Shown here piece after piece: positions 18,798 through 27,189 of a DNA stretch of 64,000 nucleotides (position 1 is the stretch's first letter; each line of letters opens with the position of its first letter). Below the pieces are notes generated by a model, which saw only the letters and a program-made list of their open reading frames with translations, was not told the origin of the DNA and ran no database searches. This DNA comes from Sialis fuliginosa (lineage: Eukaryota > Arthropoda > Insecta > Megaloptera > Sialidae), in the NCBI GenBank assembly GCA_961205875.1, contig OY540816.1, forward strand, positions 6,086,701-6,150,700, read 5' to 3'. The position numbers and the translations under genes are program-made.

Positions 18798-19368
18798 AAA
18801 AAAGTACTATTTATGCATCGAAAACGAGTTAGAAACATTCGTGCTTTTATTTACTAGAAAATTAAATTTTCACATTGGCAAGTTTACCTTTGACACGACA
18901 ATACAATAACTATAAATTTTCTCATATTCCAACAAAGAGAAGCTGGCCATTGTTCTATAAAACTAGCCAGAACGCGATCCAATAACTGACCATCGCATCG
19001 CCATATATGAACGAGAGATGTGGGTAACTGCTTACGCCACACGTGTGTGTTCATAACGGTGTAACCACCGAGAGCAACTTATCTTTTGTTTGTGAGTAAT
19101 GCGCTTACATTATGCTTCTTGCACTGCACTAATTTAGCGAACAATGCCTGAACATTCCTGTTGTCGTAGCTGATTCGTCGGGTAAACGCAAACCAGGCTA
19201 GAACAAAGACTTCGGCTAATTCGTGAGTTACATTATGTGTTCTTGTTTGTGTATCTTGCGCAGGTATTGTTTATTGTTGGGGTAATGCATTTTTATTTCT
19301 TGGGGGTTGTAGAATGTGTTGGAAGTAGATTATGTTGATTAAAATCGTTTATGTAATATTTCATTTAT
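18798..19368. other. Apparently single-copy stretch
   Basis: The part at 18940-19240 is less AT-rich than its surroundings and shares nothing with the rest of the window. It could be non-repetitive host sequence. I see no open frame of useful length and no clear promoter motif. Confidence 0.4.
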
Positions 19369-20412
19369 CTCTTTATATGTAAAATTAATGTTCGTTTGTA
19401 TGAGGTTATAGACTCGGGAATTACTGAACCGATTTCAATGCGGTTTTCACCAATTTTTGTGTGCATTATCAATATTTAATTTATCTCTTTATATGAAAAT
19501 TAATGTTCGTTTGTATGAGGCTTATAGACTTGGGAATTACTGAACCGATTTCAATGCGGTTTTCACCAATTTTTGTGTGCATTATCAATATTTCATTTAT
19601 CTCTTTATATGAAAATTAATGTTCGTTTGTATGAGGCTTATAGACTCGGGAATAACTGAACCGATTTCAATGCGGTTTTCACTCATTTTTGTGTGCATTA
19701 TCAATATTTCATTTATCTCTTTATATGAAAATTAATGTTCGTTTGTATGAGGCTTATAGACTCGGGAATTACTGAACCGATTTCAATGCGGTTTTCACTA
19801 ATTTTTGTGTGCATTATCAATATTTCATTTATCTCTTTATATGAAAATTAATGTTCGTTTGTATGAGGCTTATAGACTCGGGAATTACTGAACCGATTTC
19901 AATGCGGTTTTCACTAATTTTTGTGTGCATTATCAATATTTCATTTATCTCTTTATATGAAAATTAATGTTTGTTTGTATGAGGCTTCTAGACTCGGGAA
20001 TAACTGTACCGATTTCAATGCGGTTTTCACTAATTTTTGTGTGCATTATCAATATTTCATTTATCTCTTTATATGAAAATTAATGTTCGTTTGTATGAGG
20101 CTTATAGACTCGGGAATAACTGAACCGATTTCAATGCGGTTTTCACTAATTTTTGTGTGCATTATCAATATTTCATTTATCTCTTTATATGAAAATTAAT
20201 GTTCGTTTGTATGAGGCTTATAGACTCGGGAATTACTGAACCGATTTCAATGCGGTTTTCACTAATTTTTGTGTGCATTATCAATATTTCATTTATCTCT
20301 TTATATGAAAATTAATGTTCGTTTGTATGAGGCTTATAGACTCGGGAATTACTGAACCGATTTCAATGCGGTTTTCACCAATTTTTGTGTGCATTATCGT
20401 GGCTATTAATAT
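19369..20412 (+). repeat. Tandem array, nine 116-bp units
   Basis: CTCTTTATATG starts units at 19369, 19485, 19601, 19717, 19833, 19949, 20065, 20181 and 20297, an exact 116-bp period. Each unit carries AATGTTCGTTTGTATGAGG, CTTATAGACTCGGGAATTAC and GATTTCAATGCGGTTTTCAC. The units differ by only a few bases (for example AATAACTG for AATTACTG). The last unit runs into TATCGTGGCTATTAATATT instead of a tenth unit. The monomer is part of a dispersed repeat: 49663-49728 plus 50684-50890 is a single-copy relative. Confidence 0.9.
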
Positions 20413-20621
20413 TTTATGAAAATCTAAGATTTAACGTCAATAAACTCAAACAAAAAATGTTCATCAACTCGTGTTTTGTTTCCGTGATGTCACAGCATAC
20501 AACTGTCATTGAGATTTATAAAAACATAGTATCTAGCTATGGAATACAGAATTTTATAAGTTACGGTTTCAATATTGCACACCCCAAGCAAGCTATGGCT
20601 TGGAATGTGGTCTATTATTTA
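20413..20621 (+). repeat. Dispersed repeat Z downstream of the array
   Basis: TTTTATGAAAA-CTAAGATTTAA, TCGTGTTTTGTT and GATGTCACAGCATACAACTG are shared with 50740-50850, so the tandem array sits inside a copy of this repeat. The 90-codon frame starting at 20385 runs through the repeat and is not a gene. Confidence 0.7.
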
Positions 20622-22930: not shown

Positions 22931-23855
22931 CTCTATACTGTAAATTGTTTTTACACTATACCTTTTCAACTTCAAATTGAGACTAATCAATTTCAAATTG
23001 GGAATAATCAATTTCAAATTGGGAATAATCAATTTCAAATTGAGACTAAACAATTTCAAATTAGGAATAATCAATTTCAATTTGAGACTAATCAATTTCA
23101 AATTGGGAATTGTAAATTTCACATTTGAGATGAAAATAAATAAATTATTTATTTCAATATAATATAATGTATTATAATACAAAAAATATTTGTAATGGCT
23201 ACAATTAAACCCCCCACATCCTATCAAGGGACCCAGACTGGAATTGTTGGAGGGTTCCTAAGAAATATTTTCTCGACTTCAATAAGAAATGAAATCTCAT
23301 AGGTATATTTGAATGGCCTTTTTTATTTTTTAAATTTTATTTAAAATCGAACCCCCTATAATTTACAATCATCCAAATTAATAAGGCATATTTAATGCAT
23401 CAGATATGCATCTTTGAAGATGAGCGACATATTGGGTATAATTAGCAATAATAATTTTCGTGATATTTTCTCGTTCAATATTTTTTAGCCGTTGTAATCG
23501 AAATACAGTTTGAGTCATATTTACTGTCTTCAAACACTAAATAAATATGTGGTATTTCAATTCCAAACTCAATGTTAACACTAGCTTTTAAACTTAACCA
23601 ATTTAAAATTGATAATTCCCAATTTGATATTGATTGGTCCCAATTTGAAATTGATTAGTCTCAATTTGAAGTTGATTGTTCTCAATTTGAAATTGATAAG
23701 TCTCAATTTGAAAATGATAATTCCCAATTTGATATTGATTGGTCCCAATTTGAAATTGATTAGTCTCAATTTGAAGTTGATTGTTCCCAATTTGAAATTG
23801 ATTGGTCTCAATTTGAACTTGAAATGGTATAGTTGTAAATCACTCTGTATACCTA
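22931..23855. mobile_element. Foldback-like element with 21-bp subrepeat arms
   Basis: The left arm at 22966-23128 is a run of degenerate 21-bp units (CAATTTCAAATTG followed by GGAATAAT or AGACTAAT). The right arm at 23596-23822 is the same array in reverse. The symmetry extends outward: CTATACCTTTTCAACTTCAA on the left answers GAACTTGAAATGGTATAG on the right, then less exactly to about 22931 and 23855. Long inverted arms made of subrepeats are typical of Foldback-type elements. The 21-bp period keeps reading frames open on both strands (repeats of INFKLGI and IPNLKLI); these are artefacts, not proteins. The 460-bp centre has no recognisable gene. Confidence 0.7.
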
Positions 23856-24164
23856 AGTTTCACCAAGCTTACGATTTTATAAATCCGGAGACTTATACGT
23901 ATCATTTTTATTAACAGCTCACACGCCTTCAAATATTATAAGGAAGTAAGTAGTAACTAAAAATAATTCTGTTAAAATTAGTTCAGTGGTTTTTGAAACC
24001 ATTAATAATCAAATTGAAAGTCTTAACCACTATATAATTATTAGTATAAATTAAAATTAAAACATCCAAGTGCGTGTACGTGCCCAACACGCACTTGGCC
24101 GTAGTCATTACGATTTATAAACAAGAGTTATTTCAATTCTTTTATAAACTATTCTAGCTACAGT

Positions 24165-24740: not shown

Positions 24741-24919
24741 TCAAAAATTTTATTATTTCTGTTTTTGTGTTATTCGTCTTCGTCCGTATACCAAATTTAA
24801 TCTTAATTGCCTTAAATTTTTCAGGACGGACGGACATCGGTGAAACTATAAGATTTCCTAGTTTTCTACGGAAACCTAATACTACTGGAAAAACGGAGAA
24901 ACTGTGGTTTCTAGTTACT

Positions 24920-25062
24920 TAAACTAAAAATATACACCTTAACCACAATAAAACAATGTCACTCGACACGTGTTTCGACTTCACAAGATGTCCTCATCAG
25001 GAGCCTAACAGTTCCAGTCTGGACATTGTTTTATTGTGGTTAAGGTGTATATTTTTAGTTTA
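24920..25062 (-). repeat. Perfect 41-bp-arm hairpin, Penelope-like remnant
   Basis: The left arm is 24920-24960 and the right arm 25022-25062; they are exact inverts (ACACCTTAACCACAATAAAA against TTTTATTGTGGTTAAGGTGT). The 61-nt loop carries a hammerhead core on the minus strand. Penelope-like retroelements are known to carry hammerhead ribozymes in their terminal repeats and to generate inverted terminal copies, so I infer a Penelope-like fragment. No reverse transcriptase is present nearby. Confidence 0.75.
24955..25028 (-). ncRNA. Hammerhead ribozyme core (type I, Penelope-like)
   Basis: On the minus strand the order is CTGATGA (24994-25000), a stem-loop II region GGACATCTTGTGAAGTC, GAAAC (24972-24976), a minimal stem III with ACGT loop, then GTC (24965-24967) as the expected cleavage triplet, followed by GAGTGACATTG. 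Stem I is formed first by GCTC with GAGT and then by the long hairpin arms. All invariant core bases (CUGAUGA, GAAA, GUC) are present. In stem II one G must bulge for GAC to pair with GTC, so activity is uncertain. The short stem III is the form known from Penelope-like elements. Confidence 0.65.
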
Positions 25063-25508
25063 AGGAAACCTAATACTTAAAGTATTGGGCAAAATCAAAA
25101 AATTATATTTTATTAATTTAAAAAATATTTTTTAATCAAAATCATTATCTATTATTATCATGAATAAATTAAAAATTAAATATCCGTAAAAAGGGAACAT
25201 TTTTTTAATTATGCAAAAGTTACACAAGCAAAACGAACCGTCACGAGTAAAACGGTATTATTTTTTCAATAAGATTCATAATTAAAGTTTTTAGATTAAT
25301 GAAATTTCGTTACGCTAGTCAAGCTAAGACCTTCATTAAAAGAGCTCACAAAATCAATGAATCATTATTGAATAAGCTGCGATTTTTAAAACAAACTTTG
25401 CACCAATGACATTAATGATTTATGAAGACTCGACTCTCGTTAAAAACATTTTTCAATCCGTTATACGTTTTGTGAATCATAAAGCAACCATCATTATCTA
25501 TGTATGCA
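25063..25508. other. Spacer, nothing recognised
   Basis: AT-rich sequence; no termini or gene-like frame. Confidence 0.5.
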
Positions 25509-26631: not shown

Positions 26632-27189
26632 AGGTAATGGTACCAGTTTTGGCCGCTATAAGAGTAAGGTTTACTGTTTTTGTGATTGACGGGTTTCTTT
26701 TTTGTAATTATCATTAACTCATGTTACTAATAAAACAAGTAACTCTTTATTTAATTAATTTTTATTACCAAAATCCGAAAATATAATTTTTTTTTTTAAT
26801 TATAGCCTTTAATTTTGTTTATGTTTTTTTTCTCCAGTAATGGATAAAGTAAAATCAGTAATGAGCGCGTAGTGATGGACACTTGCTAATGATAATGTAC
26901 TACGACACAAAATATATAAAAGAAAGAATCGTCAAATTTGAAACAATGTAAAGCAGTTGCTGTGATAATATAATAATTAAAAAATAAATTATACTAATAA
27001 TTAGTTTAAATGTCCACCATTTTGACACCTATTGGCCGATTGTCATCAAATCTGTAAAACAGTTAAATGTATATAGATTAATATTCAGAAATGGTAGTAA
27101 TCAAATATCAACACATATTTCAAATTCAATACATTTAATTAAAAAATAGCAAATGACTGGGGTTATATCCAAGACTGGTGCCAGTAACT
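26632..27189 (+). mobile_element. Family C MITE, copy C3
   Basis: The ends AGGTAATGGTACCAGTTTTG and ATCCAAGACTGGTGCCAGTA-ACT are flanked by TA. The interior matches C1 closely. The 61-codon minus-strand frame at 26529-26714 is partly inside this copy and has no meaning as a protein. Confidence 0.8.

Follow-up and report, generated by a model that had tools for sequence, protein, structure and literature searches.

A hammerhead-bearing hairpin of Sialis fuliginosa: most likely a short Penelope-type insertion copied onto both sides of a chromosome break

Introduction

What brings a hammerhead ribozyme core into the loop of a long, perfect hairpin in an insect genome, and what made the hairpin? 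The locus that raises this question lies in the window, by which we mean the entire stretch of 64,000 nucleotides of Sialis fuliginosa that was analysed (contig OY540816.1, positions 6,086,701 to 6,150,700, forward strand). Minimal hammerheads in Penelope-like elements (PLEs) were reportedly described by Cervera and De la Pena in 2014. Their occurrence in PLEs is known also from the available text of a further source (PMC6155905). The hairpin is most likely a short mobile-element insertion in which a Penelope-type enzyme copied one 5' stretch of its RNA onto both sides of a chromosome break. Such minimal insertions bear on the insertion route of PLEs, on their inverted ends with one optional tail and on the role of the hammerhead. 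Inverted PLE ends with an optional tail have already been published; the value of the present data is quantitative in-genome evidence for the mechanism.

The hairpin and its hammerhead core

The window copy (24870-25077) consists of a 14-bp target duplication, a 35-nt tail, a 43-bp arm, a hammerhead-bearing loop, another 43-bp arm and the target duplication again. The features, with window coordinates, strand, positions in the leader described below and the basis of each assignment, are as follows.

24870-24883, no strand: left copy of the target-site duplication, GGAAACCTAATACT, repeated exactly at 25064-25077; its final 2 bases are common to the element end
24882-24916, minus: PLE tail, leader +105 to +139 (alignment with 19 other copies; BLAST to leader)
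24917-25020, minus: part of the tail half, leader +1 to +104, with +1 (initiator A) at 25020 (leader comparison)
24918-24960, minus: inverted arm 1, within the tail half (sequence)
24965-25000, minus: hammerhead core CTGATGA..GAAAC-ACGT-GTC, leader +21 to +56 (sequence; compensatory changes against a second PLE family; Rfam score below the cut-off)
24989, minus: A.A mismatch in hammerhead stem II (alignment of copies)
25021-25022, no strand: head-to-head junction of two cDNAs (leader comparison)
25022-25064, plus: inverted arm 2, which is the entire tail-less half, leader +61 to +103 (100% identity to leader)
25064-25077, no strand: right copy of the target-site duplication, its first base common to the element end (exact repeat)

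The inverted arms, 24918-24960 and 25022-25064, match exactly over 43 bp each, and the hairpin region folds at -76.1 kcal/mol compared with -30.3 (sd 3.7) for shuffled sequences, none of the 200 shuffles being as low. The minus strand from 25003 to 24962 reads CTC-CTGATGA-GGACATCTTGTGAAGTC-GAAAC-ACGT-GTC-GAG, in type I order (in full, CTC-CTGATGA-G-GACATC-TTGT-GAAGTC-GAAAC-ACGT-GTC-GAG), with a 2-bp stem III and predicted cleavage between 24965 and 24964. An earlier sequence-only reading of this DNA had pointed to a hammerhead-type core with a minimal stem III in canonical order on this strand and to a bulged G, and both can be read in the sequence, the G being the one unpaired nucleotide between CTGATGA and stem II; the exactness of the arms was likewise correctly noted, their length (given as 41 bp) was not. 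The A.A mismatch in stem II results from a T to A change at leader +32 (window position 24989) that is absent from the 19 other aligned copies.

A covariance check of the core with Rfam, the outcome of which the same reading had named as a possible refutation, yielded no match that reaches the threshold. The entire window contains nothing at the gathering score, and all 18 matches in a permissive search of 221 bases fall below their respective gathering scores. Hammerhead_1 scores 18.9 bits (gathering 34, E 0.037) for the window copy and 17.7 bits against the cut-off of 34 for the sister copy L017, and no hammerhead match was obtained for the second PLE family at E<=1. In the permissive search, miRNA precursors and an sRNA outscored Hammerhead_1 because of the long hairpin.

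Comparison of the PLE families provides evidence of another kind. The second family keeps the core with different stems, 6 of the 12 base pairs being changed on both sides, and 98.5% of the 68 cells in the stem comparison are paired, compared with 22-39% in slid controls; this comparison involves six sequences, in effect two families and thus a single contrast, and the count of pairs changed on both sides, taken alone, is attained in 74 of 500 shuffles. That both families conserve the core argues for some role of the hammerhead, as far as sequence comparison can indicate one. Spontaneous cleavage is doubtful, because the predicted hammerhead-constrained fold is weaker than the best one for both the leader (-8.1 vs -17.5 kcal/mol) and the window hairpin (-58.4 vs -72.6 kcal/mol).

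A repeat family derived from the leader of a Penelope-like element

The hairpin is one of many. The genome (392 Mb in 20 contigs) contains 778 exact matches to a 30-nt word from the core, 795 to an arm word and 275 to a word spanning the junction of arm and tail, and none to the reversed control of any of the three, so the recurrence of the core is not due to chance. A similarity search gave 1237 first-look candidates, the best 40 of which each have a match on both strands. In 20 aligned copies, the flanks differ, the hammerhead loop occurs in either orientation relative to the tail, and in all 20 the tail is present on one half and missing from the other; two of the tails match to +126 only, and that of L015 is split. 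About 276 bp separate the tail of L015 from its half, as if another insertion had landed inside.

Longer copies extend upstream of the loop, and these identify the repeat family as the 5' leader of a PLE. In one of them, L085, TATAAATA (TATA) stands at -31 and TCAGTC, the initiator, at +1, and the copy also includes the C-terminal end of an open reading frame (ORF); another, L086, contains an 854-codon open frame with a reverse transcriptase (RT) domain (RVT_1, E 6.2e-15), followed contiguously by TATA, initiator, hammerhead and arm, so that leader and RT frame are physically linked. The C-terminus of the ORF was sought across the genome, and among the 150 scored places listed of 249 candidates, several are in the same open frame as matches to the GIY-YIG endonuclease. 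The GIY-YIG domain scores 23.2 bits at C1:1074424, above the cut-off of 22.6, and 20.2 bits in L086, where it is under the cut-off and absent from a Pfam scan at E<=1; the endonuclease is thus found in the frame of the family, and only weakly in L086. No convincing domain was detected by Pfam in the 49-aa C-terminal piece (best E 0.36). A copy that lies beside a GIY-YIG fragment (L024) was dropped as a candidate linked PLE since it carries its own target duplication.

When C-termini beyond that of L086 were fetched, 9 of 10 run into the leader, and seven of these nine, inspected by eye, keep CTGATGA and the following GAAAC. Among the C-terminus copies, CTGATGA is changed in L150, GAAAC is lost in L152, and in L149 the homology breaks off after 28 nt. 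The expected conservation of the core across genome copies therefore holds overall and fails in single copies. The expected link of further copies to a Penelope RT was found as well: core copies adjoin the PLE RT frame, and the core itself recurs in a second PLE family.

The position of the tail in the parent element follows from two copies. In L086, a match to tail positions +116 to +133 lies shortly upstream of an in-frame ATG, and in L047, a member of the second family, the tail is followed by an ATG within about 10 nt. Since the tail sits just before the ATG in both (the start codons being our own reading), its end is internal to the mRNA and is not the mRNA 3' end.

In one locus (L081, G000:C1:39235850-39237050), half of an insertion consists of four tandem units spaced 176 bp apart, three of which combine leader +1 to +82, including the hammerhead, with 94 bp of other sequence, the last one reaching +104. 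This might represent the birth of a hammerhead satellite.

Two halves and one tail

Compared with the leader, numbered from +1, the copies resolve into two halves with their 5' ends facing and their 3' ends directed outwards. In the window, the hairpin is two leader cDNAs placed head to head between target duplications of ~12 bp. One of these cDNAs starts at leader 139 and includes the PLE tail, whereas the other starts at about 104, without the tail; the outer end of the tail would then be one start site of reverse transcription. The tail half is 97.9% identical to the leader over its length (BLAST). The second cDNA of the window copy ends at +61, near stem I; in 51 other insertions with two halves, the tail-less half ends anywhere between -375 and +80.

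With this architecture in hand, the remaining claims of the sequence-only reading can be reassessed. It had taken the arms for an extension of stem I, but they represent the stretch over which two head-to-head cDNAs overlap and, with respect to the hammerhead, are a by-product. Their identity, ascribed to recent formation, was correctly judged in kind, the arms being alike because both copy the same leader. Of the suggested 'processed or inverted terminus' of a Penelope-like element, the inverted end stands; 'processed' is not supported, the cDNA ends showing no accumulation at the cleavage site.

Two samples were used for counting. The tail-anchored sample comprises 60 insertions taken from the 275 arm-tail junction words (the whole list for C1, 46 in number, plus the 14 that follow on C2). 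Because the word spans the junction, this sample requires a tail, and so a tail-blind sample was added, namely the first 30 listed of the 778 exact core words, which correspond to 28 distinct insertions and require an intact core in one half. The samples overlap (for example, L055=L087, L069=L002 and L120=L003), and tests were run without pooling them. Before counting, L058 and L066 were dropped as duplicates of L057 and L065, and L064, a tail half with a 19-nt stub, was treated as having one half.

In the tail-anchored sample, two halves are present in 51 of the 60 insertions and two tails in none; the remaining nine have a single half, and one of these, L115, runs to the edge of the retrieved DNA. 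The tail half ends at 137-139 in all 60, as measured in a sample anchored on the tail word, and the tail-less half ends at 101-108 in 47 of 51, with the other four at 33, 85, 111 and 113. The tail-blind sample includes 21 insertions with two halves and seven with one, and every one of the 21 has exactly one tail, for which the probability is 4.8e-7 if halves were tailed independently at 0.5. Here, 20 tail halves end at 138-139 and one at 126, and 20 tail-less halves end at 96-113 and one at 81. Given the single halves (9/60 and 7/28, respectively), two-sided copying is usual and not obligatory, or else one half has been lost.

Of the 150 ORF ends listed, 17 pairs lie no more than 6 kb apart, and every one of them is head to head; five same-strand copies on C10 are spaced 7.4 kb apart, outside this 6-kb limit. 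An apparent clustering of second halves near the cleavage site (47-61 in 20/20 of L001-L020) was rejected as an artefact that arose because these copies were fetched by similarity to the window copy, and it is gone in the tail-anchored sample.

Target sites

In 48 of the 60 tail-anchored insertions, the ends are directly flanked by target duplications measuring 7 bp or more, with modes of 12 bp (25 insertions) and 13 bp (9), which together account for 34 of the 48; these are short duplications in AT-rich DNA. The target pattern was derived from insertions whose duplications reach at least 11 bp (40 of 60), turned so that the tail side is on the right. The 40 sites show a roughly symmetric target, AAY-N12-RTT: ahead of the duplication stand A, A and C or T (C in 18 and T in 14 of 40), and after it G or A, T and T (G in 18 and A in 17 of 40), where the outermost target base is partly set by the delimitation of the longest repeat, so that its precise composition calls for caution. 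In our reading, this pattern suggests that both strands are cut symmetrically, leaving 3' overhangs.

The 5' ends of the cDNAs and the template

Among 111 cDNA 5' ends, 43 fall at -5 to +4, at the predicted RNA start, which matches the TATA at -31 and the TCAGTC of L085, and 44 are spread over 10-100. The 5-nt bin at the cleavage site (55-59) holds three of the 111, about as many as the spread predicts. Because the ends gather at the RNA start and not at the cleavage site, uncut RNA appears to be the usual template, and hammerhead cleavage probably does not shape it. Among the 51 insertions with two halves, 31 have a tail half that is the shorter of the two (by >5 nt in 23), 17 have one that is the longer, and in 3 the halves are equal.

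Proposed mechanism and alternatives

The hairpin is, with high probability, a minimal PLE insertion made by two-sided target-primed reverse transcription initiated at two sites within the RNA. The PLE RT/endonuclease would cut the two strands of an AT-rich site ~12 bp apart and so create two 3' ends, each of which would prime reverse transcription inside the 5' leader of PLE mRNA. The starting points would be +139, immediately upstream of the ORF, and about +104. From there the two cDNAs would extend toward the 5' end of the RNA, one presumably reaching +1 and the other stopping at +61 in the window copy, and their joining head to head would produce a hairpin whose loop holds the hammerhead and which has a tail on one side only. 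We infer that priming takes place on both target strands and that the two ends are supplied by one RNA or by RNAs of a single locus; perhaps both cDNAs come from a single RNA.

Each insertion is a frozen product of the reaction, in which both cDNAs can be read whole and the target duplication is usually clean, so that two other ideas, self-priming and hammerhead-processed templates, can be judged from sequence. Self-primed fold-back, in which one strand folds and is copied back into a hairpin, has been proposed on the basis of palindromes at inverted junctions (available text of PMC3846280), and the sharing of markers between halves, described below, agrees with it as well as with a single RNA. 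However, a copied-back half can neither outreach its template half upstream nor hold a tail that the template lacks, and the tail half is the shorter one in 31 of the 51 insertions; because of this, neither half copies the other in those insertions, and the 23 with a difference of >5 nt contradict self-priming, whereas two-sided priming explains the observation. The preferred stop of the tail-less half near +104 also speaks against fold-back, which we consider very unlikely. Slightly less probable still is a metazoan non-LTR retrozyme that spreads as a small circular RNA processed by the hammerhead: a type I hammerhead, short repeats and target duplications >4 bp are recorded for such elements (available text of PMC7229834), and L081 has four tandem cores at 176-bp spacing, but the insertions end at +104 and +139 and the cDNA 5' ends lie at +1, no hammerhead-delimited monomer having been found, and the 111 ends carry no signal of hammerhead-processed templates. 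Furthermore, the L081 unit adds 94 bp foreign to the leader; a word taken from this segment is present at 15 places in all, 11 of them outside L081, and judging from this non-leader segment, the array looks like a local tandem duplication. The reading with the least credit of all, to the point of being barely tenable, is a MITE-like or foldback DNA transposon with the arms as terminal inverted repeats; inverted arms, target duplications and many copies are what it would predict, but the two ends differ by the ~35-nt tail, present on one side only, so that matching terminal inverted repeats were not observed, the arms have variable inner boundaries, the loop may face either way with respect to the tail, and what is repeated here is the leader of an element that encodes an RT.

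Within two-sided priming from two start sites, the question is whether one RNA or two are copied. Two RNAs, one for each target strand, with an asymmetric enzyme dimer that gives each protomer one start site, would fit both the single tail per insertion and priming on both strands, and PAc, the Penelope/Poseidon protein of Anolis carolinensis, has been modelled as a dimer (available text of PMC11167929). The halves of an insertion, however, share alleles: in the tail-anchored sample, they agree in 33 of 33 cases at +68 (26 TT, 6 GG, 1 CC) and in 24 of 25 at +91, compared with 20/20 and 17/17, respectively, in L001-L020, and 9/9 and 13/13 in the core-anchored set. Over 2695 sites in 49 insertions (the 51 with two halves minus L125 and L126, in which the second half falls short of +95), 14 variants are common to both halves, four of them in single insertions, 55 are found in one half, and one site has differing variants. 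With two RNAs, this sharing requires RNAs from one locus or a temporal effect, and turnover of subfamilies, with one active at a time, could be such a source.

The 5' ends of the two halves are correlated as well. They lie within 4 nt of each other in 16 insertions compared with 8.5 in permutations (p 0.0009), or 6 compared with 1.7 (p 0.004) after removal of the start-site pairs, and where one half extends past the start, the other stops at the start in 0 of 12 cases, against 10 of 28 (Fisher p 0.019), these tests being post hoc and based on 51 insertions. Both patterns fit one RNA better, and together with the allele sharing, they favour one RNA; the two-RNA reading, although a serious one, appears to have a clearly less than even chance. 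A fuller scheme, which we put forward tentatively as having close to an even chance, is that of a 12-bp staggered, symmetric cut at AAY-N12-RTT and a dimeric RT/endonuclease that would use two adjacent start sites on one mRNA leader, one for each 3' end, so that the insertion would normally be bipartite and hammerhead cleavage would be uninvolved in the template end. This one-RNA, two-site mechanism is a sharp, testable prediction that the insertions yield; if it is true, the tail is the signature of a two-site, one-RNA, two-strand reaction.

Relation to known systems

In L1 twin priming, both target ends prime cDNA synthesis opportunistically, and the inverted segments that result derive from separate portions of one RNA. 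The Sialis insertions resemble it in their inverted segments and, as it seems, in priming by both target ends, and differ in that both halves cover one leader and have two preferred starts.

The closest parallel is PAc (Frangieh et al., PMC11167929, to the extent of its available text). In vitro, this protein cleaves and extends both strands and uses two adjacent internal start sites, which speaks for the mechanism proposed here, with no apparent difference in start site between the top and bottom strands, which speaks against it; its hammerhead cleavage needed the protein, and hammerhead mutants left insertion unchanged, in agreement with the uncut template suggested here by the accumulation of ends at +1. 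The two systems are alike in having an RT and GIY-YIG with a hammerhead near the ORF start, reverse transcription starting at two adjacent RNA-internal sites the interval between which is the tail, and, probably in Sialis too, cleavage and extension of both target strands. They differ in that the Sialis start sites are apparently located directly upstream of the ORF (L086 and, in the second family, L047) and those of PAc inside it, in that genomic insertions use each start site once, and in the two-cDNA structure, which the available text does not describe for PAc.

Pen2a_Av of Adineta vaga (available text of PMC3846280) likewise has an inverted pLTR adjoining a direct one, most frequently head to head, an optional tail (31 bp) on one inverted pLTR, a short target duplication, and TATA and an initiator-like motif in the pLTR; the leader-only family likewise displays a pair of inverted pLTRs of which one carries a tail. 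For A. vaga, few copies were available and self-priming on an antisense template was put forward as a hypothesis in 2013, whereas the many leader-only copies analysed here argue against it. With metazoan type I hammerhead retrozymes (available text of PMC7229834), the family has in common the type I hammerhead, short genomic repeats and target duplications >4 bp, but nothing here points to a dimeric or circular layout, the ends being the apparent RT starts and the RNA start. The two-cDNA, one-tail rule was not found among the matches listed in a search of titles and abstract openings of the open-licence literature, a scope outside which most subscription journals lie.

Other PLE families and further repeats in the window

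In the second PLE family, all four pairs (L040, L042, L046/L048 and L049/L050) combine a tailed end with an untailed one. In the third family, some copies have a tail, and the head-to-head pair L031/L032, at (AT)n targets, lacks it at either end; because of this pair, the one-tail rule may not extend to all PLEs, unless L031/L032 is not a single insertion. Families 3 and 4 appear, by eye, to lack a clear stem I adjoining the core.

Two further PLE families with hammerhead-like cores (L027-L033) end in (AT)n microsatellites, and a ~30-nt tail is present in L028 and L033 and absent from the other five. In four PLE families (L024, L027, L028, L037 and similar copies), one unpaired nucleotide, as judged by eye, separates CTGANGA from stem II.

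In the window itself, a tblastn search with the L086 frame gave nothing at E<=1e-3. A weak minus-strand match to the coding part of the PLE reference (85%, E 6e-4) at 26749-26784 overlaps a four-copy repeat of the window. At 22946-23871, 21-bp repeats form two blocks that are inverted copies of each other (83-85%), and at 19290-20517, nine copies follow one another head to tail at a spacing of 116 bp, the inner copies being 96-97% alike.
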